Assembly (NCBI GenBank): GCA_003554945.1
Contig: PWHN01000057.1
Span: forward strand, 33,804 to 97,803
Direction of reading: 5' to 3'
Length of the DNA: 64,000 nt
Source: a bacterium
Lineage (GTDB): Bacteria > T1Sed10-126
In this document: positions 40,701-63,851 of the stretch, piece by piece
How positions within the stretch are numbered: the first letter of the stretch is position 1
How the letters are laid out: each line of letters starts with the position of its first letter
Position numbers and translations under genes: made by a program
Notes under the pieces: generated by a model
Seen by the model: the letters and a program-made list of their open reading frames with translations, nothing else
Databases searched by the model: none
What the model was told of the DNA's origin: nothing

Positions 40701-41316
40701 GCGCCTCGACCAGACGATTGTCTGACACTTTTCCCTCAATAAAAATGTTCCCGTCATAACGAATATCGCCTGTGTCCGCATCCACATCTCCCTCCACGTG
40801 CATTATGGGGAGAACATGAACGGTATTCCCCGCCCAGACTACCTGGCCGGGACGACCGGCATAGAGGCGCTTGCCACCGTCCGTTTCTCTCACATACCGC
40901 CCGGCTTTAAATTGGGGCTCCCCTTCTTCGGTCAGATCAGCGGCCAGAAGCTGACCGGGCTTGGCCTCCTCCAGGTTTTCCATTGACTCGCTAAACTCAG
41001 CCAGTTTTTCCTCAATGCTGGCATCCTCTTCTACTCCCTCGTCGTCCTCCTCTTCCTCTTCAGGTTTATTGAAGGTAAATGTTTTCTGAATCTGAAGCTC
41101 TTCTTCTTCCTCTTCCTCCTCGTGCGAACGGATAGTGGTTCCCTGCATTTCAATGAGACTGTCTTCAAGTTCAAACAGCTCATCTTCTATTTGCATGAGC
41201 TCCTCTTCGGAGAGCTCTTCCACTACCTCCTCGTCAAAAGAGGTCTCCTCGGTCATATCCTCACTGGTAGTTTCCGAGTCGGCCATTTTTAACACCCGCT
41301 TTCCTGTCAACGCCAT
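37711..41316 (-). CDS. Giant FapA-like (DUF342) protein with duplicated beta-helix and internal Jag-N domain
   Basis: 1201 residues, more than twice the usual FapA length. An acidic N-terminal 120 residues come first. A first FapA polymer-like region (about 120-420) has DVDADTGDIRYDGNIFIEGKV and a coiled coil. A Jag-N domain (about 575-645) holds VKVRCKSPKEGLEKAAEYLA and GVFGFGKKDYLI. Linker domains follow. A second complete FapA region (about 870-1195) has DGDLDYEVGNIKFDGVVIVKG, AGGNVFAKYVENCRVKAGGN and a second coiled coil. Strongly acidic throughout. No signal peptide. Start MALT or an internal Met at codon 11. Role in the family is unclear (polymer or scaffold); no flagellar genes are linked. 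Confidence 0.85.
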   Translation of the reverse strand: MALTGKRVLKMADSETTSEDMTEETSFDEEVVEELSEEELMQIEDELFELEDSLIEMQGTTIRSHEEEEEEEELQIQKTFTFNKPEEEEEDDEGVEEDASIEEKLAEFSESMENLEEAKPGQLLAADLTEEGEPQFKAGRYVRETDGGKRLYAGRPGQVVWAGNTVHVLPIMHVEGDVDADTGDIRYDGNIFIEGKVSDNRLVEARGNIWVMGLVGRSRLKASGDIIIRGGIKGSEKQLIQALGLVYGRFAENARIKAGSKIIIKEVVMHSQLDAEEAVILVDKGGNIIGGETAAGELIVTNDLGSVSYPETKVRMGARGVLQEELEKLEQRFNKLEGDVGRKEKNVSKLKEKKEEEGLTPADEDRLRELQFELNHEREDFQQVKLRIENIEEELDSDIRREIIVRGTVYPGVRLHIGAVREPVEEERNHCTIKVEDKEIKYDSFSEPEEALDFSPALGENLDDFEEKYETPEISELRRHVTYQEEKPLFNREDQFRLFLGLDEDEKLVLIDITPEEEEGPRPEEGEDDEGEKEEGDEEKTDKEAKKWWAIEVREGENRNKVRHYFDPKKRDSVKVRCKSPKEGLEKAAEYLAERPENLAVRILEEGRPGVFGFGKKDYLIRVVKKENIKTKQKGEEEEEETFDLLQQAKQQEDVAGFINLENTVDGLMLTVYPPEGHGLPVTLEQVKEELEDNNYDQDIDWVTVEEMVEEPTGEPRKIGPRQRDPEIDGSFSINMNEYETKAYLTVIPPKPEGVAVTKEEVINYLEGEGINYDKEIVERVFSEELFEEEVLIAEGKDPEHGKDGKIEFKLELEEEEEEEVEEGKVDFREGENVVSVKEGDVLVKVYTPTEGEAGLSVYGEEIPPEPGEDVEIKAGENTSFSADGTEVIADRDGRARLIGDKDTQELIVEPVLEIDGDLDYEVGNIKFDGVVIVKGMILDGFKVEAKQGVEAVSVGKAHVKTEGDVVVEQGLVGRDEGLVEAGGNVFAKYVENCRVKAGGNVMVRQAIMHSKVDAEENVIVDGKRRGDIIGGVTRAGKIIQAQKVGAKLASKTEVEVGISPRLRDRVSKLEDEIDLQKDNMDKVRSGIKGLMDVAEKVGGMDKLPDDKQELRSKLAARAKAIKQRIESLSEELLELKTEIDELEGGEIRVAETLRSGVKVTIQTTTMYMTEDHDNCRFILYEGEFAERHFEALELDIEWPI

Positions 41317-42845: not shown

Positions 42846-43094
42846 TTATGTCTTTTGCCCGCCTTTTTTGTAACAGTGGGGGCAGCCCTTTATCCGGAGT
42901 TCGGATTCTTTTTCATTTTTTCTAATCTCATCTGCAAACAAAGTCTCCCCCTGGGCCAGGTCGCTACCACAAACGGGACAGGTTCTAGCCGGGGGGTGCT
43001 CACCCGGACCGGTTAACTTGCCCACTCGTATTAGAGCTATGATCACGGCAATTATCAACAGAAGATATACAAACCAGATGATTTCAGGGGTCAT
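42846..43094 (-). CDS. Small membrane protein with two CPxC zinc motifs
   Basis: 82 residues. One N-terminal membrane helix (about 5-24) is followed by a cytoplasmic zinc ribbon with CPVC (39-42) and CPHC (71-74). The ATG overlaps the stop of the large exported-protein gene (ATGA), supporting translation. Function unknown. With the 41404 gene it brackets sppA, so the Zn ribbons may be accessory to membrane proteolysis or export; this is inference. Confidence 0.7.
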   Translation of the reverse strand: MTPEIIWFVYLLLIIAVIIALIRVGKLTGPGEHPPARTCPVCGSDLAQGETLFADEIRKNEKESELRIKGCPHCYKKGGQKT

Positions 43095-46000
43095 TTGTCA
43101 TTAGCCCCCTCTAAACCGAGGACGGGCGGTTGCAAATACGGCTGACCGGCTTGACCCTGTTCATAGTATAAAACACTTAACCGGTATTTTACAAACGGAG
43201 ACAGTGAAACGATAAAATTATCCTTGACCGCCTCGAGAAGCTCCAGTTGAGCGCGGTCAGCAGCACCCGGGATTAATTTCATGCGCTCTCCCGGTGTAAA
43301 AATCCCCGGTTCTTCCCGCATAAGCCCCCGTAGAACATCAAGTTCACCTTTCTCAAAAAGTATTTCTTTTAGCAACTGCCGTGCCTGCCGCATGTATACA
43401 TCTCCGGCTCCCATCCCCCGGAAAACGTCAAGCCGGGACTGAGCTTCAGCCAGCCTGCCCTTGGAAAAAAGTTCGAAGGCTCTATCCAGCAGCGGTACAT
43501 CCTCGGGCGAATGCAGCGGTATTGAGTGTTCAGAACCATATTCTCCTTCATTTATTACCTCCCAGAATGTAAATTGGGGGACATAATCCCTGTAAAGAGC
43601 TTCTAAGCTTATATAGCCCGCTGGCAAATCACCTTTACGAAAGTAACCACGGGACTCTGTAGTTACAACATCTCCACCTGGTTGTATCAAAAACGGCACT
43701 CCGGAGAGATCTACAGGATCAGCCACACTCAAGCGGCCCCTTAACCCTCCCCGCGGCCCCCCTTGGTTGTCGGGATAAAGTTCAACAAGATGCCCCTCCG
43801 ACCTCAAAGGAAGATTTAGCAGCTTGATTTTTTCATCGTCAAGAGTAAGTATTTCAAAGTTTCCGGCCTGGCGCCGAATAGTTTCTGGGCGGTATCTATC
43901 ACGATAAGGACGTAAACGTACCAGCCGGCTGCTATCTCTCGTATCTTCAACCCTGAGATACAGATCTCCTTCATCATAATGCAAACGGCTAATTCGACGG
44001 TCAACATCTAACAGTTCTTCCACTGGACGCCAGACGAATTCACTTTTGTCCAGTTCGCCACGAATTATCTTATAATTATCATCAACCGTATAAATTCCAT
44101 AATATTTATCTTCTGCCACACGTTCTAAATGCAGCAGTCCCTCGCTGTTTTCTACCTTGCCCGAAGTATCCGCTTCCAAATCAATATATCTGAAATTTAA
44201 GGTATCAGCTTCTTCGTTAACCGCGGGAAAAATATGCACTTTTCCCTGCGCTATCCCGGGACCTCGTGGTTTGGCCTCCACACCCATATTTTCAGATTGG
44301 AAACGGGCTCGATCTGTCCGGTAGAGGTTGTATTTATCAACGCCGGTCGGTCGGCTCCAAAAGTAAATATCATCGTCTGATCGCTCGTGGTAAGGAAAAA
44401 ATATACCGGCGGGCTGTGGCGTTGACATGACCTGCTCATAGCTTCGCTCTTCAAAATTATATTCAAATAATTCAGCACGTCCCCCCGGGCCTCCGCCAAC
44501 CAGATACGCCTGCCGGTCGTCAATCGCCAGACCTTCGGATAAATTCAACCCGGAGCGCGGCGAACCCAGACGGACCGGCGGCGATTGGGGACGAGAAATT
44601 TCTTTAATACTTCGTGCCTCGTCGGCCAGGACAATCAATCCCTCCTGGTGGCCAACCAGATCAACAGCCCCCTCCACTCCGCTTATAAAACCGCGCTCAA
44701 ATCCATCAAGATCAAACTGCTGGATAAATTCCGGGAAGAGCAAATAAAGGTAGCCGTCACCTCCGTAGGCAAGCGACACTTCAAAGGCTCCCTCGCCTCG
44801 GCTTGCATCAACTAATTTTGAAACCTGCAACAATCTTTTTAGTTCACCATCACTATCAAAAATTAAAACTATCCTCTGATTCCCCTGGCGTGGAAAGAAA
44901 TATTGTCCCTCCAGAATAACGTACTCTTCATTAACACCAACAAGCTCTGGAGCTTTTACCCGGTCCATCTGCTCCCAGTTTAACTCAAGCCGTGAGATGA
45001 TTTCATTTTCTCGGTTATATTTTTCTAATGAATTGTCGTCGGAAAAATAATAATATAGATATCCGTCCGGCGACCAGTAGCTTTCCGGCAGAAAAAAATA
45101 CTGGCGAGCGCTTAGAGATAGGTCATCGGGCAGAGAGGCACGACGGTATTTTGGCGGGGTATCATGAATCCGACCAACAGCCCGGGGTGCTTCCGCGGAT
45201 GAACCGACCAATAAGATAGTGGTATCCCCCGCCTTATCCTCAGGTTGTTCTTCCAACCAGATGCGGCGCTGCTGTCTTTTTTGGGGACGTTCGGGATCTG
45301 TTCCAACAATTTTCCGCGCTTCGATAGTTCGAGTAAGAAAATAAAAAATTTCGTATTCAACTGTAAGATCAACGAAAAATATCCCCTCGGGACCGGCCAG
45401 CAGTGCCCCGCGCTCATAAATCGAAATATCATTTACCTCTACATTCTCCCGTAAATCAAATATATATTCGGAATCAAGTCGGTCCTGCAGCTTCAGGACC
45501 CGCCCCTCTTCCAGGAACACGAAAACTTCACCATCGTAAACTTCAACGTCAATCAACCCTGGAAATCTTCTCTCGGCCAGTGGCCCGTCAAATCCAAAAA
45601 CGTAAATAGTGTCACCGTCGCGGCTAACTACCTCCTCCGGTCCCAGGGCTCCGACGAGCCCTCCTTCAACTACCAGTTCAGGAGTATCGCCTGCAACTGC
45701 CGGTGTGTCCGGTGTGATGAAATTAACGGTATCAGCGGTATTTTGAACAGCCCAGTATTCTTCAAAAGGTTGGATCTCTTTCACTCTGCCCTCCAGGGGC
45801 ACTGAATCACCGCCGCCAATAAGGGGAAAAACAAAGGTAGTGTCTGCCTGAACTGTTAACTCTCGATCATAAAACCAGAGGGTGTCACCCGACCAGAAGC
45901 TGCGATAATCAGGAACTAAATCCATCCCACGTAAAGTTTCGGCAGCGCGGTCAGCTCCTCCCACAATCGAATGCTCGGAGAGCAACCGGATCCCCGGTCG

Positions 46001-46207
46001 ACCCTCGGCGATAGTAAAAAATGTTGCCAGCCCCCGATCAAACACTGCCGCTTTGCCGGATTCATTCACCTGCACTGTCTCCGGGGTGTGAGCAACCGGA
46101 CGCTGCTCGAGTGGTAGCGAGGCAGTTTGGCCAATACCCGTATGAATAATCAAAACTAAAGCCATCAGTAGAAAAAATAGAACTAATCTGCTAAAATACT
46201 TATCCAT
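43091..46207 (-). CDS. Large exported protein with probable beta-propeller repeats
   Basis: 1038 residues from ATG 46207, chosen for AAGGGA 7 nt upstream; a longer reading to 46255 has no ribosome site. Signal peptide (SRLVLFFLLMALVLIIHTGIGQTA) then a long extracytoplasmic beta-rich body. Repeating Tyr/Asp segments such as YLYYYFSDD, DGYLYLLFPEFIQQFDLDGFE and ADKYYGIYTVDDNYK recall propeller/NHL blades. The last 150 residues (DRAFELFSKGRLAEAQSRLD, then ARQLLKEILFEKGELDVL) are TPR-like helices. No specific family recognised. Monocistronic start with small downstream partners. Confidence 0.7.
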   Translation of the reverse strand: MDKYFSRLVLFFLLMALVLIIHTGIGQTASLPLEQRPVAHTPETVQVNESGKAAVFDRGLATFFTIAEGRPGIRLLSEHSIVGGADRAAETLRGMDLVPDYRSFWSGDTLWFYDRELTVQADTTFVFPLIGGGDSVPLEGRVKEIQPFEEYWAVQNTADTVNFITPDTPAVAGDTPELVVEGGLVGALGPEEVVSRDGDTIYVFGFDGPLAERRFPGLIDVEVYDGEVFVFLEEGRVLKLQDRLDSEYIFDLRENVEVNDISIYERGALLAGPEGIFFVDLTVEYEIFYFLTRTIEARKIVGTDPERPQKRQQRRIWLEEQPEDKAGDTTILLVGSSAEAPRAVGRIHDTPPKYRRASLPDDLSLSARQYFFLPESYWSPDGYLYYYFSDDNSLEKYNRENEIISRLELNWEQMDRVKAPELVGVNEEYVILEGQYFFPRQGNQRIVLIFDSDGELKRLLQVSKLVDASRGEGAFEVSLAYGGDGYLYLLFPEFIQQFDLDGFERGFISGVEGAVDLVGHQEGLIVLADEARSIKEISRPQSPPVRLGSPRSGLNLSEGLAIDDRQAYLVGGGPGGRAELFEYNFEERSYEQVMSTPQPAGIFFPYHERSDDDIYFWSRPTGVDKYNLYRTDRARFQSENMGVEAKPRGPGIAQGKVHIFPAVNEEADTLNFRYIDLEADTSGKVENSEGLLHLERVAEDKYYGIYTVDDNYKIIRGELDKSEFVWRPVEELLDVDRRISRLHYDEGDLYLRVEDTRDSSRLVRLRPYRDRYRPETIRRQAGNFEILTLDDEKIKLLNLPLRSEGHLVELYPDNQGGPRGGLRGRLSVADPVDLSGVPFLIQPGGDVVTTESRGYFRKGDLPAGYISLEALYRDYVPQFTFWEVINEGEYGSEHSIPLHSPEDVPLLDRAFELFSKGRLAEAQSRLDVFRGMGAGDVYMRQARQLLKEILFEKGELDVLRGLMREEPGIFTPGERMKLIPGAADRAQLELLEAVKDNFIVSLSPFVKYRLSVLYYEQGQAGQPYLQPPVLGLEGANDK

Positions 46208-46423
46208 GAATAAATCCCTTCTCGCCAGATCAAACTTAAGAGTCAACCCAATCATTCGGAAGGTTCTTGAATAATCACATCTAAAACGAATGATTTCATT
46301 GCTTTTTTACGCACCTATAAGTATAATGATATCTTAAATCGGCTGGAATATATAGATGAGTTTGACCAAACTCACAATCTACCAACGATCTAGCCAAGAC
46401 GGCCACCAGCCCGCTCTTGATTT

Positions 46424-53359: not shown

Positions 53360-54286
53360 CTAAAAATTCACCGTGCCTCCGGTGCGGATAATATTCCCAT
53401 TTTCTTCCTGCATATAACCCAGCCGGAAGGAAAATCGCTCAAATTGAAAATCAAGGTTACCGGCCATTCCATCGTTATCCTCGTATATGTTGTGATAACC
53501 AACAGCCAGACTGACGTGGGGAGAATATAAAAAACGTAGCCCCCCGGCCACTCCAATCTGTTGATCGTCATCAGTATTACTGTTCTCATCTTCAAGATAA
53601 ACGGCATCCGCCGTTATCCCCAACCTGGTCTGAAACAGATACCAAGCCACACCCGCCCTGTATTGAGGTGGAAGCTTGTTTTGTTTATCGTCAACCTTCA
53701 AGGAACCGTTTATGTTTTTTCCTACGGCACCGAGCCATAAGTCAGGCGTCATTCGAAAAATCGCCCCGACGTCCATACTTCCGGCAGTCTCTCTGTCGTA
53801 GTCAAAGTCAATTTTAGAAGTCATTACATTCCCGGTCACTCCAAGAGCCAGTCTATCTGTAAGAAGCTGGCTGTAAGTGAGACCTGCTTTAAATTCATTG
53901 CCCTGGGGCCGATAGAGGTCATCGGGCTCTTCCGGTTCAAGTTCGCCGTAATCAAGCCACGTGAATTGGGTTGAAAAAGCACCGCCACCACGCATCGGAT
54001 GCGCCAGGGCAGCGCTTACAAGGTCCCATCCTTCACCCCAGCGCTGGTATTCAACGCTGAACTGGTTTGAAGCTATACGGCTAACGGCCGCCGGATTAGT
54101 AAAGCCTGCCTGTGCCGCTCGTGCATCAGCGGCGTAAGCCTGACCGACTCCCATGTTAAAAACCGGCAGATTCCAGCGCTCAAGATTGTCCCCCAGGGCC
54201 ACCTCCTGCACCGTCTTACCAGCATACAGCGGACTCGCCCCCAGAAAGAACCCTATTATTAATATAGAAAAAATGACTGCCTTCAT
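53360..54286 (-). CDS. PorV/UPF0164-like outer-membrane barrel protein (short)
   Basis: 308 residues from ATG 54286; longer in-frame reading to 54493 would translate a GC-rich repeat and is rejected. Signal peptide AVIFSILIIGFFLGASPLYA. NPAAVSRIASNQFSVEYQRW is the hallmark opening of the PorV/PorQ/UPF0164 group, followed by repeating amphipathic strands ending in Phe (LDFQFERFSFRLGYMQEENG, then GGTVNF at the very end). In T9SS, PorV shuttles cargo to the outer leaflet. A second barrel of the family lies upstream at 54914. Confidence 0.8.
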   Translation of the reverse strand: MKAVIFSILIIGFFLGASPLYAGKTVQEVALGDNLERWNLPVFNMGVGQAYAADARAAQAGFTNPAAVSRIASNQFSVEYQRWGEGWDLVSAALAHPMRGGGAFSTQFTWLDYGELEPEEPDDLYRPQGNEFKAGLTYSQLLTDRLALGVTGNVMTSKIDFDYDRETAGSMDVGAIFRMTPDLWLGAVGKNINGSLKVDDKQNKLPPQYRAGVAWYLFQTRLGITADAVYLEDENSNTDDDQQIGVAGGLRFLYSPHVSLAVGYHNIYEDNDGMAGNLDFQFERFSFRLGYMQEENGNIIRTGGTVNF

Positions 54287-54405
54287 TACTTTATTAATAC
54301 CACCTTTAAATGAAATCAGTCTCCTCAACAGTATCTTTCCATACGAAAAAAATAATCTTCCAGCTCTCAGTTCCCTCCCCTGAGAAGGAACAAAGTTTCC
54401 GCCTT

Positions 54406-54450
54406 TTAATCCCCTCCCCCCTGGAGGGGGAGGGTTAGGGTGGGGGGGAG
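54406..54450. repeat. GC-rich palindrome on one side of the DUF559 gene
   Basis: ATCCCCTCCCCCCTGGAGGG and GGAGGGTTAGGGTGGGGGGG form a palindrome in the leader of the short PorV-like gene. It is the counterpart of the copy at 54846 on the far side of the nuclease gene. Confidence 0.75.
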
Positions 54451-54489
54451 AATTAGAAAAAGAAACAGTAAAATGTCTCTCTAAATTTT

Positions 54490-54837
54490 TCATGATTCAT
54501 CAAGCCCCTTTAAAATTTGCTCCAATACTTTATCTATCTCTTTTAAAACTTCGTTGTTCCAAAACCTTAATACAGTAAATCCTTCACTATTCAACCGATC
54601 AGTTCTCTCATCATCATACGTCTTATTTTTTTGGTGCTGACCACCGTCTAACTCCACAATAAACTTTTTTTCAAAACATTCCACAATATATTTATCTATT
54701 GGCTGCTGACGTCGAAATTTATAGTCATCCAAATTTTTCTTCCTCAGGTGATACCAAAGTTTTTCTTCAGCATCTGTCATATTTTTCCGCAAGTGCTTCG
54801 CTTTTTCAACATTTTTCTTTTGATATTTACGTTTCAT
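54490..54837 (-). CDS. DUF559 / Vsr-like endonuclease-fold protein
   Basis: 115 residues of the very short-patch-repair-like nuclease fold. RKNMTDAEEKLWYHLRKK is the family opening. The FRRQQPIDKYIVECFEKKFIVELDGGQH stretch holds the PD-(D/E)xK-type residues (Asp, Glu, Asp, His), and LRFWNNEVL ends the domain. Such stand-alone genes are frequent, function uncertain. It is bracketed by C-rich palindromes in the middle of an envelope operon, so it looks like an insertion. Confidence 0.88.
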   Translation of the reverse strand: MKRKYQKKNVEKAKHLRKNMTDAEEKLWYHLRKKNLDDYKFRRQQPIDKYIVECFEKKFIVELDGGQHQKNKTYDDERTDRLNSEGFTVLRFWNNEVLKEIDKVLEQILKGLDES

Positions 54838-54913: not shown

Positions 54914-56176
54914 TCATTGGTTATCCCTCGCATTCTGCAGGTATTCCCGCGCCTTTTCATAATTACCAATCTGGTAATAAGCCTGTCCAAGCTGCCTGTA
55001 TACACCGCTCTGTCCGGGAGCATCCCGCAGACTCTGCTCCCACAACTCGATTGCCTGCTCGTAGTTACCTGCCTCTAAGTGCTGCTCGGCGCGCGAGTTA
55101 AGCTCAGCGTTTTCCTCATCAATTTCTTCACTGCGTTCTGGAATTAGCTCCTTAAGATCTCGCTCCAGCCCCTCGCGGAAGCGACGCCGTTCTTCAGGGT
55201 CTACAATCTCCGGTCGTTCCCTGATCAACCTTTCCTCGGGCCGGTGACCAAACTCGAAAGACATCGAGAAGACGTGACTGGCTTCCAGGTTTGTGCGATC
55301 AGAGTAACTGTAATCAAAAGCAAACTGACCATCATTAACTCCAAGACCGGTATAAAATTGCCCGTCGTCGCTATAATCACGCGAAGTAGAATAACCGGCC
55401 CGCAGGTCGAGAAAATTAACGAGATTATACTCCGCACCCAGGGCAAAATAAGTGATATTTTCCGGCTGATAATATATTAGATCGTTGGCCAACGTTAAAC
55501 GCCTCTCAAAGGGCTGAAAGTCATAAGCCCAACCGGCGCGAACAGTACGCGGCAGTGGATCTCCTTCTTCAATAAATTTGATATCCGGCCCCAGGTTCTG
55601 CACCACCGCTCCAAGACGCAGCGGTGTCCGCGGAGAACTGTAATGCAGGCCAAGATCGAGCGCATAACTGCTGGCATCATAGTCAGCCAGTTGTTCACGA
55701 ATGTATTTGGCGCCTGCTCCCAGAGACAGACCATAACGACTTCCGTAAGCGTAGTTTAACGAAAACGAACCGCTGTAATTTGTAAAATCAGAACCGTCCT
55801 CCCACTCTGAGCGGTAGTAATCAGTGGTGTGTAACAATCTCCCTCCCACGCCAACAGTATGACTGGCCCCAAACGGATAAGCCAGGCTCAAATATTCGTT
55901 GTCAATATCTAAATCGGGAAATAGCTGCTCGTGGCTGACGCTGAATACGCCCCGTTCCAACCGGCTCATGCCGGCCGGATTCCAGTACATTCCGAAACCG
56001 TCATCAGAAACAGCCGTATAGGCGCCGGCCATAGCCGTAGCTCGCGGGCCCGCCTTGACACGCAGGAAATCCGCGCCGACTATACCGACGTCACCAGCCC
56101 ACACCGGAGAAATCCCCAAACATAAAAACAGTATTACTGTCAATATTACCAAGGGCTCTATTTTTCGACTACTCAT
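54914..56176 (-). CDS. PorV/UPF0164-like barrel protein with C-terminal TPRs
   Basis: 420 residues. Signal peptide (LVILTVILFLCLGISPVWA). The barrel opens with VGADFLRVKAGPRATAMAGAYTAVSDDGFGMYWNPAGMS, a textbook PorV/PorQ start. Repeated strands run to about residue 310. A charged linker (EERRRFREGLERDLKELIPE) leads to two TPR units (AEQHLEAGNYEQAIELWEQSLRD and AYYQIGNYEKAREYLQNARD). The barrel-TPR fusion suggests docking of a periplasmic partner. Located between the secreted proteins and the TonB operon. Confidence 0.85.
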   Translation of the reverse strand: MSSRKIEPLVILTVILFLCLGISPVWAGDVGIVGADFLRVKAGPRATAMAGAYTAVSDDGFGMYWNPAGMSRLERGVFSVSHEQLFPDLDIDNEYLSLAYPFGASHTVGVGGRLLHTTDYYRSEWEDGSDFTNYSGSFSLNYAYGSRYGLSLGAGAKYIREQLADYDASSYALDLGLHYSSPRTPLRLGAVVQNLGPDIKFIEEGDPLPRTVRAGWAYDFQPFERRLTLANDLIYYQPENITYFALGAEYNLVNFLDLRAGYSTSRDYSDDGQFYTGLGVNDGQFAFDYSYSDRTNLEASHVFSMSFEFGHRPEERLIRERPEIVDPEERRRFREGLERDLKELIPERSEEIDEENAELNSRAEQHLEAGNYEQAIELWEQSLRDAPGQSGVYRQLGQAYYQIGNYEKAREYLQNARDNQ

Positions 56177-56257: not shown

Positions 56258-56345
56258 ACTTTCGCCCCCTCGCCCCATCTCCCCATCGACACTCCACGTT
56301 CCCCGCCCTTGAACTTGACCTTCGCTCTTGTTGTTGACGCCAAGC
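56258..56345. repeat. CGCCCCATCxCCCCATCGACACTCCACG word repeat
   Basis: TCGCCCCCTCGCCCCATCTC then CCCATCGACACTCCACGTTC, followed by CGCCCTTGAACTTGACCTTCGC. The same phrase recurs at 57957-58010 and 62100-62180. The spacer 56177-56365 otherwise holds only a GCACGCAGATCCCGC phrase also found at 57822. Confidence 0.75.
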
Positions 56346-56365: not shown

Positions 56366-57745
56366 TTACTTAACAAGGGTAACCTTGCCCCTTTCGACGC
56401 CATATTGTGATTTAATCACGTAGACATAGGTACCACTGGCCACGTAACTGCCGCGGTCGTTCTTGCCCCACCAGCGGGCTTTGTTACCGCTTTCGCGAAA
56501 GTCTATGCCCCGTCCAACAGTCAACCGCCGCACCATCTGTCCCTGCACGTTGTAGAGGAAGATCTCCATACCGTCATCTGCCGGCAGATCCTGGAATACG
56601 AACGGGTCGCCTTCAAGCGGTTTAAACGGCGACGGCCAGGTTCTGACCTCATCCAGCGTATCGATGTGGTCGGGATCGGGATCGGGCGTCCAGACAGTGG
56701 TATCTTCCCCGGCCAGGGCAGCATCCATAACGTCCGTATTAACCGAGGCTCTAATGTAAGTAGTTTCGCCACGCACCTCAAGGAAGGGCGTCTTGCCTTC
56801 CAACGCCGGGTGTTCATCAAAACGTGAATGTCCCTCCGTAAAGCCAAACTCAAGCTCATAGAGTGGAATATCTGCATCTTCATCCTCTTCCAGAACTATG
56901 TCAAGTTCTGAACCGGTTAATTTATCACCATATTTATCCTCGGACCAAATGCTTACCGGCAGCGTATCGCCAATAGACGGCTGCTCTGCCCTGATCATAC
57001 CAAGAGGTTCTCCCGCTTCGTCCGTCCGCCCCACGTATTTTTCTTCCCTGAAATAGAGCGGCTCGGGTTCTTCGGCAGTTACTGGAATCACTACTGTATC
57101 TGCTCCGCGGCCTCGTTTAGAATCCACCCAGGCACTGTCGGGATGGCTGGTTTCTGCCACAATAGTTATCGTATCGGCTTCAAAATTACTATCCAGATCT
57201 ATCTCTAGACCAATATATTTGGTATCCATAGAATCAACTATAGACTCTATTCTGCCGGTAGAATCAATAGTATCCCCATCTACATCTGTTAGTCTGATAC
57301 TTTCTATGCCCGTTTCTCCAGCAACTGAAGTATCCGCGGAAAGACTGAACTCATCCGGCGCATTCCCCAGATTCCAGGCCTCAATGTCAATTATGTCAGA
57401 TGCGCCCGGCAACATTCTATGCTCGTTATGTTCGGGTATCAGGTGTGGGAACGCAAGCGTATCCACACTTGCCGAAACTTCTGCCGGAGTCATATACGTA
57501 GTATCTCCGCCGTCTCGGTTACGGGCGATCATAACCATTTCACCGGGACCGGCCGGCAGGCGATTATCAGGTGTTTTAGCATTCTCAATTACTGTTCCTA
57601 CAGGGGTCGTATCCGTCTCCAAATCATACTCAAATCTTCCTTCTACCGGACTAACACACAGCAGCAGAACGAGCAGACCAATCCCACAGAGCAGATAACG
57701 GGACCAATTGCGGAAAAGCCCGCTCATCCTGCTGGTTTCATTCAT
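56366..57745 (-). CDS. Secreted protein with FlgD/T9SS-like C-terminal domain
   Basis: 459 residues. Signal anchor (YLLCGIGLLVLLLCVSPVEG). The N-terminal half resembles that of the DUF11 paralogues upstream (a GDTTYMTP segment, NLGNAPDEFSLSAD), so it is a relative with a swapped C-terminus. The last 80 residues (WPSPFKPLEGDPFVFQDLPADDGMEIFLYNVQGQMVRRL, ending SGTYVYVIKSQYGVERGKVTLVK) form a FlgD-Ig/Por-secretion-like domain. Possible T9SS-type cargo. GAGGTG is 6 nt upstream of the ATG. Probably followed in the transcript by the PorV-TPR gene. Confidence 0.8.
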   Translation of the reverse strand: MNETSRMSGLFRNWSRYLLCGIGLLVLLLCVSPVEGRFEYDLETDTTPVGTVIENAKTPDNRLPAGPGEMVMIARNRDGGDTTYMTPAEVSASVDTLAFPHLIPEHNEHRMLPGASDIIDIEAWNLGNAPDEFSLSADTSVAGETGIESIRLTDVDGDTIDSTGRIESIVDSMDTKYIGLEIDLDSNFEADTITIVAETSHPDSAWVDSKRGRGADTVVIPVTAEEPEPLYFREEKYVGRTDEAGEPLGMIRAEQPSIGDTLPVSIWSEDKYGDKLTGSELDIVLEEDEDADIPLYELEFGFTEGHSRFDEHPALEGKTPFLEVRGETTYIRASVNTDVMDAALAGEDTTVWTPDPDPDHIDTLDEVRTWPSPFKPLEGDPFVFQDLPADDGMEIFLYNVQGQMVRRLTVGRGIDFRESGNKARWWGKNDRGSYVASGTYVYVIKSQYGVERGKVTLVK

Positions 57746-57764
57746 GCGTTACACCTCACTTTTG

Positions 57765-58008
57765 AACCACAGATTTCACAGATAAAATTCGGATTTAATT
57801 CAAAATAAACATCTTTTTGGCACGCAGATCCCGCAGATAACTTCGGATTTATGGTCAAGCCCTTGCTTTGGGCGGGCTGTGAACCGCTAAACCTAAATCC
57901 TGTCAATCCTGTCAATTGCCTCACGCCCTTGAACTTGACCTTGATTCCCACGCGCTTTCGCCCCCTCGCCCTATCGCCCCACCGCCCCATCGACACTCCA
58001 CGCGGTAC
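57765..58008. repeat. Word-repeat tract in the 58-kb spacer (left part)
   Basis: The 730-base spacer 57746-58475 has no convincing gene. This part strings together ACCACAGATTTCACAGATAA, CGCAGATCCCGCAGATAACT, CCTGTCAATCCTGTCAATTG, CGCCCTTGAACTTGACCTTG and TCGCCCCCTCGCCCTATCGC phrases, several shared with 56260, 60550 and 62100. Confidence 0.75.
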
Positions 58009-58262
58009 CAAACACACAGGAGGTGCACTTAGACTCGAATTCGCCGCAGAGGTCCCTGGATGCGATACAGGCCACCCCTGCAAATTACACCGGTCCGCAG
58101 ACCATCGCTTGCCCTGTCGCAAATCACGCACTAATTTGCTTCGGAGCCGGCCGCGGCTCCTATTGAACTGTTCCGGGCAACCACGCCTGCTCAGCACTGA
58201 TTCCCGGGTCGAGTCTATACTGCTTCGGTCATTCAAAAGATCCATCCTTTCTTCTGCAAATT
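58005..58262 (-). other. Conserved intergenic element, copy 1 (possible small reading frame)
   Basis: About 250 bases shared with 62232-62490. Read on the minus strand it starts GAAAGGATGGATCT, then diverges with conserved GTGATTTG and CAAGCGATGG words, and ends ACCTCCTGTGTGTTTGGTAC. Translated from that ATG both copies give MDLL, then (S/T)TRE, Gln-Asn spacing and a KRW stretch. That suggests either a short gene or a structured RNA; no good ribosome site exists. The remaining 58263-58475 shows nothing recognisable. Confidence 0.5.
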
Positions 58263-58475
58263 CAAATCACCTGCAAGTTGAGCAAGCCCCTCTCAACAGA
58301 TCATCAACCTCAATCTAAAGGCTCCGGCCCGCTCAGACATTCCCGATCACCGACCGGTTATCCGGAACTGTCCTGCCTGCACAAGCTGCACGCCTTACAA
58401 CCAACCCACCGGCAGCCTGCCGCAAGTATACAGCCGAACTACCGCAGTCCTGAGACCACCCAATAAAAAACATCA

Positions 58476-59750
58476 TCAGTTGATCTGAACAGTGAATTCA
58501 ACTAACCGGTTACCAGGCACATTTTCATTAAAATCCGGGTCTTCATCACCGTAAGGCCCTATCTCATGAAAATGCCAGCGGAGCATCTCTACGTCCGTAT
58601 CGCCATCTGTAGGTTCTTCACCGGTGAAATCATCGTAGTCGTAACCATCCGCATACTCGAATTCATCCGCTTCACCTTGCTCCCCCGAATAATACGTCGT
58701 ATGCTCCGGAATAGCATCGATGATCTCGATATCGGTCGCCGTGTCACCACCATGGTTGGAAACAGCTATCTCATAACTAATCGTGTCACCAGGGCGCCGG
58801 CGCCAGTCTTCAACATCCAGTGCTTGCTTATCGATAGCCATATCCGGACCTAGGACCTGAGTTACAAACCAGCCGGTCTGGGTGTCAAAACGGTCCTCTT
58901 CAACCGGCATTCCACGCTCCCAGCCGTCACCGTAGGGATATTCCCCCTCGTGAGTAGGGGCGTTATTGGTCACCTGAAACCTGGACTTTATCCAGTCTTG
59001 ATCACTTACATTTCCGTCGGAGGTAACGACAAGATAAATTGTCTTTACCTCGCCGTAGGACCAGCCAGATATTTCACCGTCGACAAGATTTCCATCTTGC
59101 CCGGCTCCGACCGCGTCCTGGGAACCATCAAAATCTGCCGCAGTATTGGCACCGTCTTCGTAGTAAAGCTCGACTGTAAACTCTCCTTCCTCTTCATCCG
59201 GGTCCAATTCTTCGACATAATTCTCGTGCAGCGCGTCGTAGTCGATGTTTACGTAGTTGTTACTCATGTTCATCACCTGCACGGCTCGCACCACCGAGTC
59301 GCTGGCTGTAATCGACACCGTGTCGGCCGGATCGTAATCCTCTAGATCAGAACCGTCACTCATCTCAACCTCACGGAAAATTTGCTCGAAATCCTGTCCT
59401 TCGACCGTGGAGGAGTCAGGCCGGGCAATATAGGACATGTCCCAGCCGGTATCGACGTTATCCTCAATTTGATCCGCTATAGCATAACTGGTGTCGGCTC
59501 CCTGCAAGTTTCTCCAACGCAGGGCCAGTTCACCAGGGTCGCCGGGCAGTTCCTGCGGGCCCGGATCAATAGCGTTAATTATCTCCTCCATCGCCTTGGT
59601 TATCGTGTCACCGTCATCAACCGCACTCTCCATCGAGATCTTGTCCGTGTCGGACTCTACTGCCTGTGAGGGCGATGGGCTCACAGCCAGTCCAAAGGCA
59701 GCAACAAAAGTCACTGCAAGAAAAAGAATTAAAATCTGTTTAAATCGCAT
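58476..59750 (-). CDS. DUF11-domain secreted surface protein, paralogue 1
   Basis: 424 residues. Signal peptide ending PSPSQA (about 30). N-terminal domain (about 31-120) with GELALRWRNLQGADTSY and DNVDTGWDMSYI. A central domain holds SVVRAVQVMNMSNNYVNIDYDALH and the GEVKTIYLVVTSDG strand. The C-terminus is one DUF11 repeat (RPGDTISYEIAVSNHGGDTATDIEIIDAIPEHTTY) that ends directly in FTVQIN. Strongly acidic. AGGAGGT is 6 nt upstream of the ATG. The leader copy at 59751-59862 is shared with paralogue 3. Likely S-layer or appendage component; inference. Confidence 0.85.
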   Translation of the reverse strand: MRFKQILILFLAVTFVAAFGLAVSPSPSQAVESDTDKISMESAVDDGDTITKAMEEIINAIDPGPQELPGDPGELALRWRNLQGADTSYAIADQIEDNVDTGWDMSYIARPDSSTVEGQDFEQIFREVEMSDGSDLEDYDPADTVSITASDSVVRAVQVMNMSNNYVNIDYDALHENYVEELDPDEEEGEFTVELYYEDGANTAADFDGSQDAVGAGQDGNLVDGEISGWSYGEVKTIYLVVTSDGNVSDQDWIKSRFQVTNNAPTHEGEYPYGDGWERGMPVEEDRFDTQTGWFVTQVLGPDMAIDKQALDVEDWRRRPGDTISYEIAVSNHGGDTATDIEIIDAIPEHTTYYSGEQGEADEFEYADGYDYDDFTGEEPTDGDTDVEMLRWHFHEIGPYGDEDPDFNENVPGNRLVEFTVQIN

Positions 59751-59862
59751 CGTTAGAACCTCCTGTGTGTGTGATACTGCAAGATTAATTGTGCGTAATG
59801 TAACGTCGTACTGTGCTGCTAATGCTGTCCTTTGCTACAATACTTGTCGTATCACCTCCCGT
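59751..59862 (-). promoter_or_regulatory. Conserved 110-nt leader, copy 1
   Basis: About 85 percent identical to 63737-63848. On the mRNA strand it begins with an extended Shine-Dalgarno GGAGGTGAT (59859-59851), runs through ACAGCATTAGCAGCACAG and GACGTTACATTACGCACAA, and ends in CACACACAGGAGGTTCTAAC before the ATG. Two strong ribosome-binding sequences about 100 nt apart are notable; only the proximal one serves the gene. Confidence 0.75.
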
Positions 59863-59867
59863 TGTTG

Positions 59868-59940
59868 GCGGGGAGCAGGGCGCAGGGGGCGGGGGGCTAA
59901 ACCCGTAAACCCTTAAAATCCTCTGCTCGCAGACCGTAAA
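59868..59940. repeat. GGCGGGGAGCAGGGCGCAGG-type G-rich repeat, copy 1
   Basis: TGGCGGGGAGCAGGGCGCAG then GGGGCGGGGGGCTAAACCCG, followed by TAAACCCTTAAAATCCTCTG. Near-identical tracts occur at 60372-60450 and 61929-61995, each upstream of a paralogue. Confidence 0.8.
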
Positions 59941-59977
59941 ATAATCGATCATTTCCATTTTATTTCCCTCTCCTTTT

Positions 59978-60346
59978 TTAAGACTTTCTCAAACTTTTTT
60001 GAAAATTCGTTATTTGTCGGGATAATTGCTCAAGTTCTGTCACAATATCCTTACAAGGGTCAGGATCAATTAACCCACGTCTACGAAAAACTGTAAGCAT
60101 ATTTACGTTCTCGAAAATAGAACGCCGTGCAATTCCCAAAAATCGGCTAAACTCCTTATCACTATCACAACCGGCTCCTTCCGCGATATTATTAGATACA
60201 GACAAAGCAGCTCCGTTAAGCTGCTCAGCAAATTTATACTTTTTCTTTTGCGCGATTTCCTCCGCTATGTCATAAAGCTTGTCTCCCACGTTTATTGCCA
60301 TTTTCCAAATTTCAAACTTCATAAAGCGAAACGGCTCGTCTTGCAT
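59978..60346 (-). CDS. Four-helix bundle (S23/IVS-type) protein
   Basis: 122 residues of the family first found in 23S intervening sequences. FMKFEIWKMAINVGDKLYDIA opens helix 1; AALSVSNNIAEGAGCDSDKEFSRFLGIARRS is the conserved centre with NIAEG and the F-x-RFL-x-IA pattern. Two further helices complete the bundle. ATG at 60346 has AGGAGTG 8 nt upstream. Function not established. It interrupts the tandem surface-protein genes and is flanked by G-rich repeats, consistent with insertion. Confidence 0.88.
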   Translation of the reverse strand: MQDEPFRFMKFEIWKMAINVGDKLYDIAEEIAQKKKYKFAEQLNGAALSVSNNIAEGAGCDSDKEFSRFLGIARRSIFENVNMLTVFRRRGLIDPDPCKDIVTELEQLSRQITNFQKSLRKS

Positions 60347-60364
60347 CTCAAATCACTCCTAAAA

Positions 60365-60644
60365 ATCTTTTGGCGGGGAGCAGGGGACCGAGGGCTGGGG
60401 ACCCGTTAACTCCTGAAAACCCTTGCTTAACCTGCTCTGCCTTGAGATATCCATCATCACTCATCAGTAACCTCTCCAGCTCAATTTCCTTTCTTGGTTT
60501 TGAACTGCTTTTTTTCTCGTTTTTGCTCTTAATTTTGCACTTGCCTTTGTCTTTTGCTCCACGCTCCCCGCCCCACGCGCCCTTCCCTCGCACTTGAACT
60601 TGACGTTAGCCCCCTGCCCCCTGCCCCACGCCCCCCGCTGCTCT
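60365..60644. repeat. G-rich copy 2 and C-rich word repeats upstream of the S23-type gene
   Basis: This 298-base spacer contains TGGCGGGGAGCAGGGGACCG with GACCCGTTAACTCCTGAAAA (60372-60425). Then come GCTCCACGCTCCCCGCCCCA, CGCACTTGAACTTGACGTTA and CCCCCTGCCCCCTGCCCCAC phrases (60547-60640). No coding region. Confidence 0.75.
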
Positions 60645-61910
60645 TTAGTTAATCCAAACTTCAAAACGCACCACCCTTTCACCGGTATCAGGAGCTTCCC
60701 AGTCAATCTCCCAATCTTCCGGATCAATTCCCTCGTTATATTCAATCTCATCGTACGTCCAGCGTATCTTTTTCACGTTTTCCGGTTCGTCCACATCCCA
60801 ATCCTCACCGTCATACTCACTTTCAAATTCAACCGTCAGATTATCCTGCAGAATGGTATCCCCTTCGGCACTTTCCGGCACATAAGTAGTATGCTCTGGA
60901 ATCGCATCCACAACCTCAATTTCCGTCGCCTTGTCACTACCGTAGTTAACTATCGCTATCTCATACCCGACCGTATCTCCGGGTCGCATCCTCCACGCGC
61001 CCGTATCACGCGCCCGCTTATCAATCATCATACGCGGACCGGTTATCTCGGTCACAAAGTAACCCCACTGGGTGTCAAACCGGTCCTCAGCAGTCGGCAG
61101 GCCGCGCTCCCAGCTATCACCACTGGTGCTGGCATCGTCGTCATGCACCGGCGCGTTGTTGGTTATGAAGAACTCCGACTCCACGTAGTCGCCGTCACTG
61201 ACCTGGTCATCAGCACTGATCACGAGGTAGATAGTCTTGACCTCGCCCATCGTCCAGCCGTCGATATCACCGTCAGCTCCATCAACACGAGTTATTCCCC
61301 CACCAACGTCACCGCTATCAAAATCAGTCGCTTCCCGGAAACCGTCCTCGTAAAACAGCTCCAGGCTGAAGGAACCTTCTTCGATCTGATCTATCTCTTC
61401 GGCTATCGTGTCGTGGTAGCCGCTGAAGTCGATATCGACGTAATTGTTGGAAAGATTAGCCACCTGGACGGCCCGAACCACCGAGTCACCGGCGCTCATA
61501 CTGACCGTATCGGCGCCGATATTACGTTCTTCTTCCGTGCCAAACCGGGCCCGGCTGAATACTGGTTCGTCGGCACCATCGACGTCAATAGTGGAAGAAT
61601 CAGCCGCCGCAATATCCGACATGTCCCAGCCGGTGTCGACACTGTCGGTCACTGTCTGCTCCGGCGCTTTCCAGCCGGTGTCACCGCCGGCAAGGTTGGT
61701 CCAGTTGACGACAAGCTCACCGTGGGTATCGGGATAACGCTGCTGCGTGGCGGCAGTGTCAAAGGCGTTGACTATCTCCGTCAGCGCCCGCGTCACACCA
61801 ACATCAACCGTGGTCTCCTCGGCCACAGCCTGCCCCGCCGGCAGAGCAATCCCCACAGCTGCCAGAGACAGACCAACAAGAACCGAAACCAACCACTGAT
61901 TACGTTTCAT
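60645..61910 (-). CDS. DUF11-domain secreted surface protein, paralogue 2
   Basis: 421 residues. Signal peptide (LVSVLVGLSLAAVGIALPAGQAVA). N-terminal DVGVTRALTEIVNAFDTAA with NLAGGDTGWKAPEQTVTDSV and DTGWDMSDI. The central domain holds GDSVVRAVQVANLSNNYVDIDFSGYHD and GWTMGEVKTIYLVISADD. A single terminal DUF11 (GDTVGYEIAIVNYGSDKATEIEVVDAIPEHTTY) closes with FEVWIN. Closely related to its neighbours. Unlike paralogues 1 and 3 it lacks the conserved leader; only a weak AGGGG precedes the ATG and word repeats lie upstream. Confidence 0.85.
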   Translation of the reverse strand: MKRNQWLVSVLVGLSLAAVGIALPAGQAVAEETTVDVGVTRALTEIVNAFDTAATQQRYPDTHGELVVNWTNLAGGDTGWKAPEQTVTDSVDTGWDMSDIAAADSSTIDVDGADEPVFSRARFGTEEERNIGADTVSMSAGDSVVRAVQVANLSNNYVDIDFSGYHDTIAEEIDQIEEGSFSLELFYEDGFREATDFDSGDVGGGITRVDGADGDIDGWTMGEVKTIYLVISADDQVSDGDYVESEFFITNNAPVHDDDASTSGDSWERGLPTAEDRFDTQWGYFVTEITGPRMMIDKRARDTGAWRMRPGDTVGYEIAIVNYGSDKATEIEVVDAIPEHTTYVPESAEGDTILQDNLTVEFESEYDGEDWDVDEPENVKKIRWTYDEIEYNEGIDPEDWEIDWEAPDTGERVVRFEVWIN

Positions 61911-61924
61911 TAGAATGAACCCCT

Positions 61925-62230
61925 TATTGGCGGGGAGCAGGGCGCAGGGGGCGGGGGGCTAAACCCGTTAACCCCTGAAAACCTCTGACCAACCTGCTTC
62001 GCCTCAAAGTGTTCTGCATCGTCCATCTTTAATCAGTCCTATTCACTTGCGTTCCGCGGTTTTGAACTGCTTTTTGCTCTTGATTTTGCTCCACGCGCCC
62101 CGCTCCATGCCCCATCACCCCACCGCCCCATCGACACTCCACGTCCCCCTCCGCCCTTGAACTTGACCTTGATTTCCACGAACTTTCGCCTGTTCGCATG
62201 CTCGCCTGTTCTCCTGCTCGACGCTTCACG
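61925..62230. repeat. G-rich copy 3 and C-rich word repeats between paralogues 2 and 3
   Basis: TTGGCGGGGAGCAGGGCGCA to CCGTTAACCCCTGAAAACCT (61928-61984) repeats the tracts at 59868 and 60372. Next, CACGCGCCCCGCTCCATGCC, CGCCCCATCGACACTCCACG and GCCCTTGAACTTGACCTTGA phrases fill 62090-62180, then TTCGCATGCTCGCCTGTTCT. The 650-base spacer 61911-62560 contains no convincing gene. Confidence 0.75.
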
Positions 62231-62231
62231 C

Positions 62232-62490
62232 AGTACCAAACACACAGGAGGTTCAAATCCTTGTTCGGGTACAATCTTCCCCAACACATACAACCAGGAC
62301 GGCAGCCATCGCTTGTCCCGCCACAAATCACTCACAAATTCGTGTCGAGACACCGCACGCCCTTTATTCAACTGCACCGGTGCACCGCCGAAAAACGATG
62401 CTTCCCGGGTCGTAAAGTTCAACTTCGCTGTAACCAATAGATCCATCCTTTCAAGGGTGTTCTCATTGCACTCCTCAAAAAATCGAAACA
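62232..62490 (-). other. Conserved intergenic element, copy 2
   Basis: Partner of 58005-58262. The minus strand begins near CTTGAAAGGATGGATCTATT and includes GAGTGATTTGTGGCGGGACA and AGCGATGGCTGCC. It ends in GAACCTCCTGTGTGTTTGGTACTGC (62263-62239), which is an inverted near-copy (22 of 24) of the leader found at 59755-59779. Both copies therefore carry a reversed piece of the surface-gene leader. A GCCGGGGAAA...TTTCCCGGC stem at 62514-62537 may end the paralogue 3 transcript. Confidence 0.5.
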
Positions 62491-62560
62491 CTGCACCCCT
62501 TCACTACTTACTCAGCCGGGAAAAATCTTTCCCCGGCCTCCATCAGACCGACTCCGCTCG

Positions 62561-63736
62561 TTAGTCAATGGTGACGGAGAAGCTAAGCTCCAGTGATCCG
62601 TATTCACCATCTTCCTGATCCGCCGGGATCGTGTCGTAATACCACCTGATCATCTCAGTAGCGTCATCATCCGCGTCATCAAAATTGTCAGCGTTGAGAT
62701 TGTCAGAAAAATCTATATCAACAGATTCTCCATAATCAGGATCATCACCGGCGGCTGATCCGGCGATATAAGTGGTATGCTGCGGTATAGCGTCAATAAT
62801 CGTCACGCCCGACGCCGTATCGCTACCGATGTTATCCACTGTCAGGGTGTAATCTATAGTGTCTCCAGGTCGTGTGCGACCGCTTGGAGTATCGTGGGAC
62901 TTGTCGATTTGGATAACCGGTCCCTCGACAACTGTCCAGAATAAACCGGTTTGTGTGTCATATTGATCCTCTCCGACAGGCACGCCTCGCTCCCAGGCAT
63001 CACCGCTTCCGGAAGGATCTCTAACCGGTGCGTTATTAGTCACCCAGAAATCAGATTTGATCTCATCGCCGTCAGCAGCATCAACGCCAGACTTTACAAC
63101 TAGAAACAGGGTCTTAACTTCACCCATAGTCCAACCCGTCACGTCACCGTCGGAGCCTCCTACTCCTTCGAGATCTTCATCTGGCAAAGTGTAAAAGTCT
63201 TCCGCCGTGTAAGACCCATCAGCGTAATGCAACTCCAATGTGAAGGTGTCGTTGCCATCGGTAAATTCATTTTGATAACCCTCACCAATTAAATGATACG
63301 CAGAGAAATCAATCTCGACGTAGTTATTGCCGAGATTGGCAATCTCCACGGCTCGCACCCTGGTGTCGTTAGCTGCTATCGACTCAGTTTCACCAAATAC
63401 ATCCGTTACTGCGAGGCCTTCAAAATGAGTTGTATCGTGGATATCCGACATGTCCCAGCCGGTGTCGACGGTGTCCGTAACCCGATCCTCGGGTGCAGAC
63501 CAACCAGTGTCACCACCGGCAAGGTTGGTCCAGCGTGAGACAACTTCACCGCGGGCGTTTGGAAAACGTTCGTCAACCGCCGCGGTGTCAAAAGCGTTGA
63601 TAATCTGCTCCATCGCTCGGGTTACTCCAACATCAACTGTGTCATCGGCCTGCGCGGGCGATGGGTTCCACGCGAAACCAATTGCAATAGCGATCGCTAC
63701 TGCAACCAATAAAGTGAATAATCTTCTGACTTTCAT
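62561..63736 (-). CDS. DUF11-domain secreted surface protein, paralogue 3
   Basis: 391 residues. Signal peptide (FTLLVAVAIAIAIGFAWNPSPAQA, cleavage before DDTVDVG). N-terminal DVGVTRAMEQIINAFDTAA, GEVVSRWTNLAGGDTGWSAPE and VDTGWDMSDI. Centre with RVRAVEIANLGNNYVEIDFSAYH and GWTMGEVKTLFLVV. C-terminal DUF11 (GDTIDYTLTVDNIGSDTASGVTIIDAIPQHTTY) ends LSFSVTID. First gene of the surface cluster in transcription order within the window; AGGAGGT 6 nt upstream and the full conserved leader precede it. Confidence 0.87.
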   Translation of the reverse strand: MKVRRLFTLLVAVAIAIAIGFAWNPSPAQADDTVDVGVTRAMEQIINAFDTAAVDERFPNARGEVVSRWTNLAGGDTGWSAPEDRVTDTVDTGWDMSDIHDTTHFEGLAVTDVFGETESIAANDTRVRAVEIANLGNNYVEIDFSAYHLIGEGYQNEFTDGNDTFTLELHYADGSYTAEDFYTLPDEDLEGVGGSDGDVTGWTMGEVKTLFLVVKSGVDAADGDEIKSDFWVTNNAPVRDPSGSGDAWERGVPVGEDQYDTQTGLFWTVVEGPVIQIDKSHDTPSGRTRPGDTIDYTLTVDNIGSDTASGVTIIDAIPQHTTYIAGSAAGDDPDYGESVDIDFSDNLNADNFDDADDDATEMIRWYYDTIPADQEDGEYGSLELSFSVTID

Positions 63737-63848
63737 CGTTAGAACCTCCTGTGAGTGTGATACTGCGAATTTAGGTTGTGCGTAATGTAACGTCGCGCTG
63801 TGCTACCAATGCTGTCACTTACTGCAAAAATTGTCTTATCACCTCCTG
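63737..63848 (-). promoter_or_regulatory. Conserved 110-nt leader, copy 2
   Basis: Counterpart of 59751-59862. GGAGGTGAT (63846-63838) again lies about 100 nt before the ATG, followed by GACAGCATTGGTAGCACAG and GACGTTACATTACGCACAAC, then CACACTCACAGGAGGTTCTA. Conservation exceeds that of ordinary spacers, suggesting either recent duplication or RNA-level function. Confidence 0.75.
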
Positions 63849-63851
63849 TAC

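Follow-up and report, generated by a model that had tools for sequence, protein, structure and literature searches.

The stretch of 64,000 nucleotides analysed here (the window) covers positions 33,804 to 97,803 of contig PWHN01000057.1 (GenBank assembly GCA_003554945.1, lineage T1Sed10-126), from a genome with a 2.2 Mb assembly that is 93.5% complete. It carries a cluster of four minus-strand genes transcribed in the order D391, D421, D424 and F459. With moderate confidence, we consider that their products form a head-to-tail surface fibre built of split DUF11 (CLIPPER) domains and possibly locked by isopeptide bonds between its subunits, with F459 as the base. The cluster lies exactly where a sequence-only reading of the window had placed it, and the suggestion made there, that these are modular filament subunits joined by strand donation in which the protein with the sorting domain is terminal or anchoring, is favoured by the comparative evidence presented below; no evidence supporting the S-layer offered as its alternative was found.

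62561..63736, minus strand: D391, shaft subunit with a putative donor N-terminus, an immunoglobulin (Ig)-like central domain and a truncated C-terminal DUF11 acceptor
60645..61910, minus strand: D421, shaft subunit, paralogue of D391
58476..59750, minus strand: D424, shaft subunit, paralogue of D391
56366..57745, minus strand: F459, proposed base subunit with the donor motif PVGTVIENA, no acceptor and a tail resembling FlgD and type IX secretion system (T9SS) domains

Each shaft subunit (D391, D421 and D424, the D proteins) has a C-terminal DUF11 that is short of its two final strands. In the proposed assembly, the segment following the signal peptide of each shaft would give these strands to the DUF11 of the next subunit. 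A Lys and an Asp of the acceptor and an Asn of the donor would then be placed for an isopeptide bond between neighbours, a bond that in DUF11 is normally intrachain. F459 would donate and be unable to accept. Its tail, probably handled by the adjoining PorV-family protein, would keep the fibre on the outer membrane, and the acceptor-only tip is probably encoded beyond the contig end.

DUF11 has been renamed CLIPPER, and in structure 9IFR Lys715 and Asn806 are linked by an isopeptide bond, for which Asp748 is the presumed catalyst (PMC12617251); in a sequence search of solved structures this was the only domain matched, weakly. The DUF11 of D391, D421 and D424 scores 36.9, 28.1 and 32.8 bits (E 5e-9 to 3e-6) against a Pfam PF01345 gathering cut-off of 24.6, and all three proteins also exceed the cut-off of TIGR01451. 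On a reference profile of 136 columns made from internal tandem DUF11 copies only (Lys at column 11, Asp at column 45, strand 7 ending at column 92, Asn near column 103), the three proteins terminate at the end of strand 7, with V.F.V.I[ND] as the last strand of the chain. Their terminal DUF11 is two strands short and lacks the isopeptide Asn. The truncation had been seen in the sequence-only reading, which took the stop to be at the last strand; it lies two strands before the domain end. The Lys of strand 1 and the catalytic Asp are invariant in 13 family acceptors from three genomes, and are located in the window as follows.

62564..62923, minus strand: D391 acceptor, DUF11 to strand 7, with Lys279 at 62900-62902 and Asp315 at 62792-62794
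60648..61040, minus strand: D421 acceptor, with Lys298 at 61017-61019 and Asp335 at 60906-60908
58479..58850, minus strand: D424 acceptor, with Lys308 at 58827-58829 and Asp345 at 58716-58718

The same stop recurs elsewhere. Relatives outside the phylum of the window have a DUF11 truncated at the same point as in the D proteins. Among about 95 proteins from many loci in which DUF11 is the last element (a sample chosen in part for short reading frames, so that its proportions are no estimate for all DUF11 proteins), 85/95 have a beta-strand-like end, the stop falls at column 92 or close to it in nearly all, and only about four contain the whole domain.

Comparable gene layouts are present in many unrelated bacteria, including Thermus and Deinococcus. 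Their loci (L numbers) hold three kinds of protein, namely those with an acceptor only (putative tips), those with donor and acceptor (putative shafts) and those with a donor only and an outer-membrane anchor (putative bases).

Acceptor only, for example: L103 (611 amino acids, aa), L106 (606 aa), L068 (838 aa) and L104 (1845 aa, start cut by the contig)
Donor and acceptor, for example: L101 (654 aa), L103 (610 aa), L104 (333 aa) and the D proteins of the window
Donor only, with a T9SS-like tail: F459, its orthologue, L038, L065, L102 and, as judged by eye, L165
Donor-only layout with a T9SS-like tail, but with the Asn missing: L041 and L068
Donor only, with a C-terminus resembling an outer-membrane barrel: L101, L103, L106, L109, L113 and Pacificitalea
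Named cases that can be cultured: Thermus thermophilus HB8 pTT27, TTH_RS10905-RS10925; Deinococcus radiodurans pMP1, DRO_RS15300-RS15310; Pacificitalea manganoxidans

Since the tips hold an acceptor alone and the bases a donor alone, neither can complete itself, which argues for exchange between molecules. The smallest proteins with both ends (L165, 189 and 194 aa) consist of little beyond the donor strand and one acceptor domain. The gene order tip, protein with FN3-like and discoidin-like parts, shaft, base and PorV is found in L068 and L104, and most of it in L102, L066 and L041; in the related genome G001, a shaft and a base come after a giant acceptor protein, the gene of which is also interrupted where its contig ends. 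In the window the layout is shaft, shaft, shaft, base and PorV, and only 64 bases upstream of D391 remain before the contig ends and truncates the cluster.

In the relatives outside the phylum of the window, the mature N-terminus reads AGTxIxNxAxxxY...SNxVxxxV, as do strands 8-9 when DUF11 is internal. A profile made from these two strands of internal repeats scored above 8 bits with 12/76 N-termini of terminal-DUF11 proteins and with 1/1520 shuffled sequences. Searched against 420 other open reading frames, it gave six matches above 8 bits, all with the donor motif and no C-terminal acceptor, and five of these six donor-only proteins bear a T9SS-like tail or a barrel-like C-terminus. Typical donors matched canonical strands 8-9 with an hhalign P of 1.3e-5. 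When acceptors were fused to their own N-termini, the fusion outscored all 50 shuffles in 13/17 shafts with a canonical donor, and the match lengthened from column 92 to 121-133. The Pfam version of this test was weak, apparently because even an internal canonical copy matches PF01345 only to position 101, at about the Asn strand; with DUF7927, 4 bits were gained by the own donor over shuffled ones.

The donor segment of the window family reads VTRAMEQIINAFD...GEVVSRWTNLAGGDTGW...VTDTVDT and contains an insertion of roughly a dozen residues relative to canonical donors. The Ile and Asn of its I.N[AG] motif are invariant in nine proteins of the D type. Canonical donors occur in the bases of related loci, being GTVIENA in F459, NTLLTNVASFQY in G029 and LTVDNTASIQF in G176. 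From its location behind the signal peptide, its unvarying I.N[AG], the homology of the operons and the N-terminal disorder of the structural model, we infer that the N-terminus of the window D proteins supplies the donor strand. The N-terminal region, which had been described as a domain of its own, would be better explained as the last two strands of the DUF11 of a neighbour. The codons of the putative donor Asn residues are listed below.

63596..63598, minus strand: Asn47 of D391 (EQIINA)
61767..61769, minus strand: Asn48 of D421 (TEIVNA)
59574..59576, minus strand: Asn59 of D424 (EEIINA)
57581..57583, minus strand: Asn55 of F459 (GTVIENA)

In the AlphaFold2 (AF2) model of mature D391, two Ig-like domains fold (residues about 85-230 and 231-361). 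Residues 1-84 are left unfolded, with a predicted local distance difference test score (pLDDT) below 50, as would be expected if this segment folds only in a partner, and low confidence can also stem from the shallow alignment of six sequences behind the model. Residues 244-361 align to residues 194-311 of SpaA (3htl) with a middling Z of 7.3 over 103 residues at 2.8 Å, and the C-terminal domain model also aligns to CnaA-type domains of PilB and RspB. The central domain of D391, as modelled, is better explained as an Ig-like (NEW3-like) fold. An enzymatic function was also considered and rejected, no catalytic family being matched and the fold search giving Ig-like surface domains; signal peptides are predicted in all four proteins, as had been proposed from the sequence.

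D391, D421 and D424 are true paralogues (41-45% full-length identity by BLAST, 45-48% in the alignment), very acidic (pI about 4.05) and devoid of Cys. The view that all four proteins make up one secreted family has to be relaxed, F459 being only a distant relative. By BLAST, only 36-93 of its residues match the D proteins (E 0.03-3), and a profile of the paralogues and their relatives (columns 8-88) matches F459 from residue 17 with a domain E of 3e-5; the kinship is confined to the N-terminal ~90 residues. Of the N-terminal and NLxNNY central domains ascribed to all four, both stand for the D proteins and the former for F459, where the central domain is not established and the sequence NLGN is found at a similar place.

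About 33 proteins with donor and acceptor keep all of Lys, Asp and Asn. The Lys column was read by eye, because loop insertions make its placement by hmmalign unreliable. Classified by donor Asn and acceptor Asp, ~33 proteins have both, three have neither, two have Asp without Asn, and none has Asn without Asp. The three double losses belong to L041, L067 and L068; L041 also lacks the Lys, and the bases of L041 and L068 also lack the Asn.

Several results weigh against a bonded fibre as described above. The co-variation of Asn and Asp (Fisher p 0.0012 over proteins and 0.012 over loci) was scored by eye after the hypothesis had been formed and on related sequences, which makes the p-values exploratory; it is suggestive, and only that, of a covalent bond between chains. 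Two shafts (L107 332 and L133 358) have lost the Asn yet kept the Asp. Lys and Asp have been lost from a tip and a shaft in the G029 C30 locus (L041), so the bond is at best not universal. The donor segment of the window family shows no significant similarity to canonical donors (hhalign P 0.07), and the fusion test with the canonical DUF11 profile fails for this family, the donor strand not being recovered. The F459 model, with a mean pLDDT of 39, is too poor for use. The tail of F459 falls below Pfam cut-offs, matching CHU_C (E 0.004; 17.7 bits, cut-off 27) and FlgD_ig (E 0.017), and it scores 13.4 bits against a TIGR04183 cut-off of 23. A search for SprA found none in the genome of the window; weak matches were obtained in G001, G029, G133 and G068, and SprA_N (PF14349) was silent in four genomes and in controls alike, so that the silence of this profile is uninformative alone. 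Finally, the shaft subunits have no T9SS tail, and the fibre reading leaves their crossing of the outer membrane unexplained.

Strands might be exchanged with no covalent bond, Lys, Asp and Asn serving for packing and complementation alone holding the chains together, as in chaperone-usher pili. The G029 C30 locus retains the layout though all three residues are gone and is apparently a non-covalent version of it, and some small acceptor-only proteins lack the Asp. We nevertheless regard this explanation as unlikely, since most loci keep the three residues, Asp and Asn tend to go together, and the same residues form the bond in the intact CLIPPER domain (PMC12617251). Far less probable is that a shaft chain closes its C-terminal DUF11 with its own N-terminal strands and gives circular monomers that act as independent surface proteins. 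Such closure is geometrically possible in chains that hold both donor and acceptor, but the acceptor-only and donor-only proteins of the same loci are unable to self-close, and the N-terminus stays unfolded in the AF2 monomer.

We give a similarly small chance to the view that the C-terminal DUF11 is a secretion or sorting domain equivalent to the T9SS tail of F459. It would account for the location of DUF11 at the extreme C-terminus and for its place being taken by the tail in F459. However, truncated C-terminal DUF11 also occurs in Thermus, in Deinococcus and in loci devoid of T9SS tails or PorV homologues, and the truncation at strand 7, the retained Lys and Asp and the N-terminal donor motif would be left unexplained. 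Least probable of all, in our estimate, is that tandem duplication gave rise to nothing more than common DUF11 adhesins or S-layer proteins and that the truncation is a domain-boundary effect: DUF11 is indeed frequent in surface adhesins (PMC12617251) and repeats in the spacers reveal tandem duplication, but internal DUF11 copies of the same data set continue through strands 8-9, and the stop is sharp and common to otherwise unrelated proteins. The head-to-tail fibre, with a possible bond between its chains, remains the explanation that we favour. The broader proposition, that there is a widespread and hitherto undescribed class of such surface fibres in diderms, polymerised through split CLIPPER domains, welded by interchain isopeptide bonds and based, according to lineage, on a T9SS tail with PorV or on an outer-membrane barrel, has in our opinion somewhat less than an even chance of being correct.

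The FlgD/T9SS-like tail attributed to F459 from the sequence forms its extreme C-terminus and is conserved in an alignment with the CSSed10_354m orthologue, even though its scores remain below the family cut-offs; at least six tail-like domains occur in the window's genome. Two PorV-like genes follow F459 on the same strand.

54914..56176, minus strand: PorV/PorQ-family outer-membrane protein with C-terminal tetratricopeptide repeats (TPRs) (NF033709, E 1e-45)
53360..54493, minus strand: second PorV/PorQ-family protein (NF033709, 94.4 bits, cut-off 90)

In several relatives, too, the base gene is followed by a PorV homologue; such homologues adjoin T9SS-tailed bases, and the loci with barrel bases have none. 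The PorV homologue of L068 also appears to end in TPR-like repeats.

Two further kinds of protein accompany the loci. In relatives outside the phylum of the window, a secreted protein with FN3-like and discoidin-like parts (assigned by eye) is encoded between tip and shaft genes; having neither donor nor acceptor, it may help in assembly or in binding to surfaces. The second kind is a small stand-alone truncated DUF11 protein (160-210 aa), often encoded directly 5′ of a shaft gene and in many cases with the catalytic Asp replaced; such proteins perhaps cap or chaperone the donor hairpin without a covalent bond.

FN3/discoidin-like protein: L036, 1958-3229 (minus strand); L040, 6200-8449 (plus strand); also L068, L104 and L066
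Small stand-alone truncated DUF11 proteins: L103, L106, L111, L112, L113, L172 (TTH_RS10905) and L174

Repeats of 31-113 nt, 64-100% identical, recur in the spacers of the four-gene cluster, and a leader-like copy of 74 nt is found upstream of D424 and of D391. These shared repeats suggest that the cluster probably expanded through tandem duplications in which intergenic DNA was copied as well.

Spacer repeats: 56264-56307, 57924-58027, 59789-59925, 60370-60513, 61920-62075, 62109-62255 and 63776-63849

The spacer between D421 and D424 also holds a gene for a protein of the 23S rRNA-intervening-sequence type (59978-60346, minus strand; PF05635, E 7e-25). Elsewhere in the window, the minus strand encodes a 1201 aa protein (37711-41316) whose C-terminal half contains Jag_N and FapA domains and in which ~570 N-terminal residues are without assignment, and a 1054 aa protein (43091-46255) with no match in Pfam or NCBIfam.

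The D proteins share with CLIPPER (DUF11, PF01345; 9IFR; PMC12617251), found mostly in surface proteins, the family, the Lys and the catalytic Asp. In CLIPPER the bond is intramolecular, its Asn lying on the same chain, whereas here the Asn strand is absent and a matching strand is present at the N-terminus of other subunits. As in chaperone-usher pili (type 1, P and CupE), an incomplete Ig domain would be filled by the N-terminal donor of a neighbour under a logic of tip, shaft and base; in contrast to those pili, the acceptor is two strands short, the donor would be a hairpin of the same family with a possible covalent lock, and a T9SS tail or an outer-membrane barrel is part of the base. 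The usher (PF00577) is absent from six genomes, that of the window included, with a positive control in E. coli. Strand donation between subunits without an usher is known from the archaeal thread (Saci_0406, PMC9715654) and TasA fibres (PMC9674648), which are made of other proteins in other organisms; for the thread, an intermolecular isopeptide bond from the N-terminal amino group of Asp24 to Asn57 two subunits away has been proposed (PMC9715654). Sortase pili (SpaA) have CnaA-type Ig domains with Lys-Asn isopeptide bonds, and it is to 3htl that the D391 model aligns, but their subunits are linked by sortase; sortase (PF04203) is absent from six genomes, with positive controls in Gram-positives. 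The grappling-hook protein GhlA of Litorilinea (49 DUF11 domains, PMC13319060) is likewise a surface filament built of DUF11, but its domains follow each other in tandem within a single giant polypeptide, where here there would be many subunits with split domains. T9SS cargo with its PorV/PorQ shuttles (PMC5562754, PMC12618676) resembles F459 in the FlgD/CTD-like C-terminal tail and the adjoining PorV-family gene, and differs in that here the tail is under the family cut-offs and is borne by the base subunit alone.

No paper linking DUF11 to interchain strand donation was found in a literature search whose coverage left out preprints and most subscription journals; in the one paper where both occur, the terms are unconnected. 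Annotations of DUF11 proteins often read adhesin or hypothetical protein. If the proposal is true, the role of such a protein (tip, shaft or base) could be read from which DUF11 end it has, a pilus class requiring neither usher nor sortase would be added, engineered isopeptide tags would have a natural precedent, a counterpart of SpyTag/SpyCatcher, and there would be hints at the job of some PorV-family proteins outside Bacteroidota. Each of the parts is known, namely Ig strand donation, CLIPPER isopeptide chemistry and T9SS anchoring, and we know of no fibre in which they are combined. Such a fibre would belong among the donor-strand-complemented fibres, and would form a new class of pili if the interchain bond were demonstrated.

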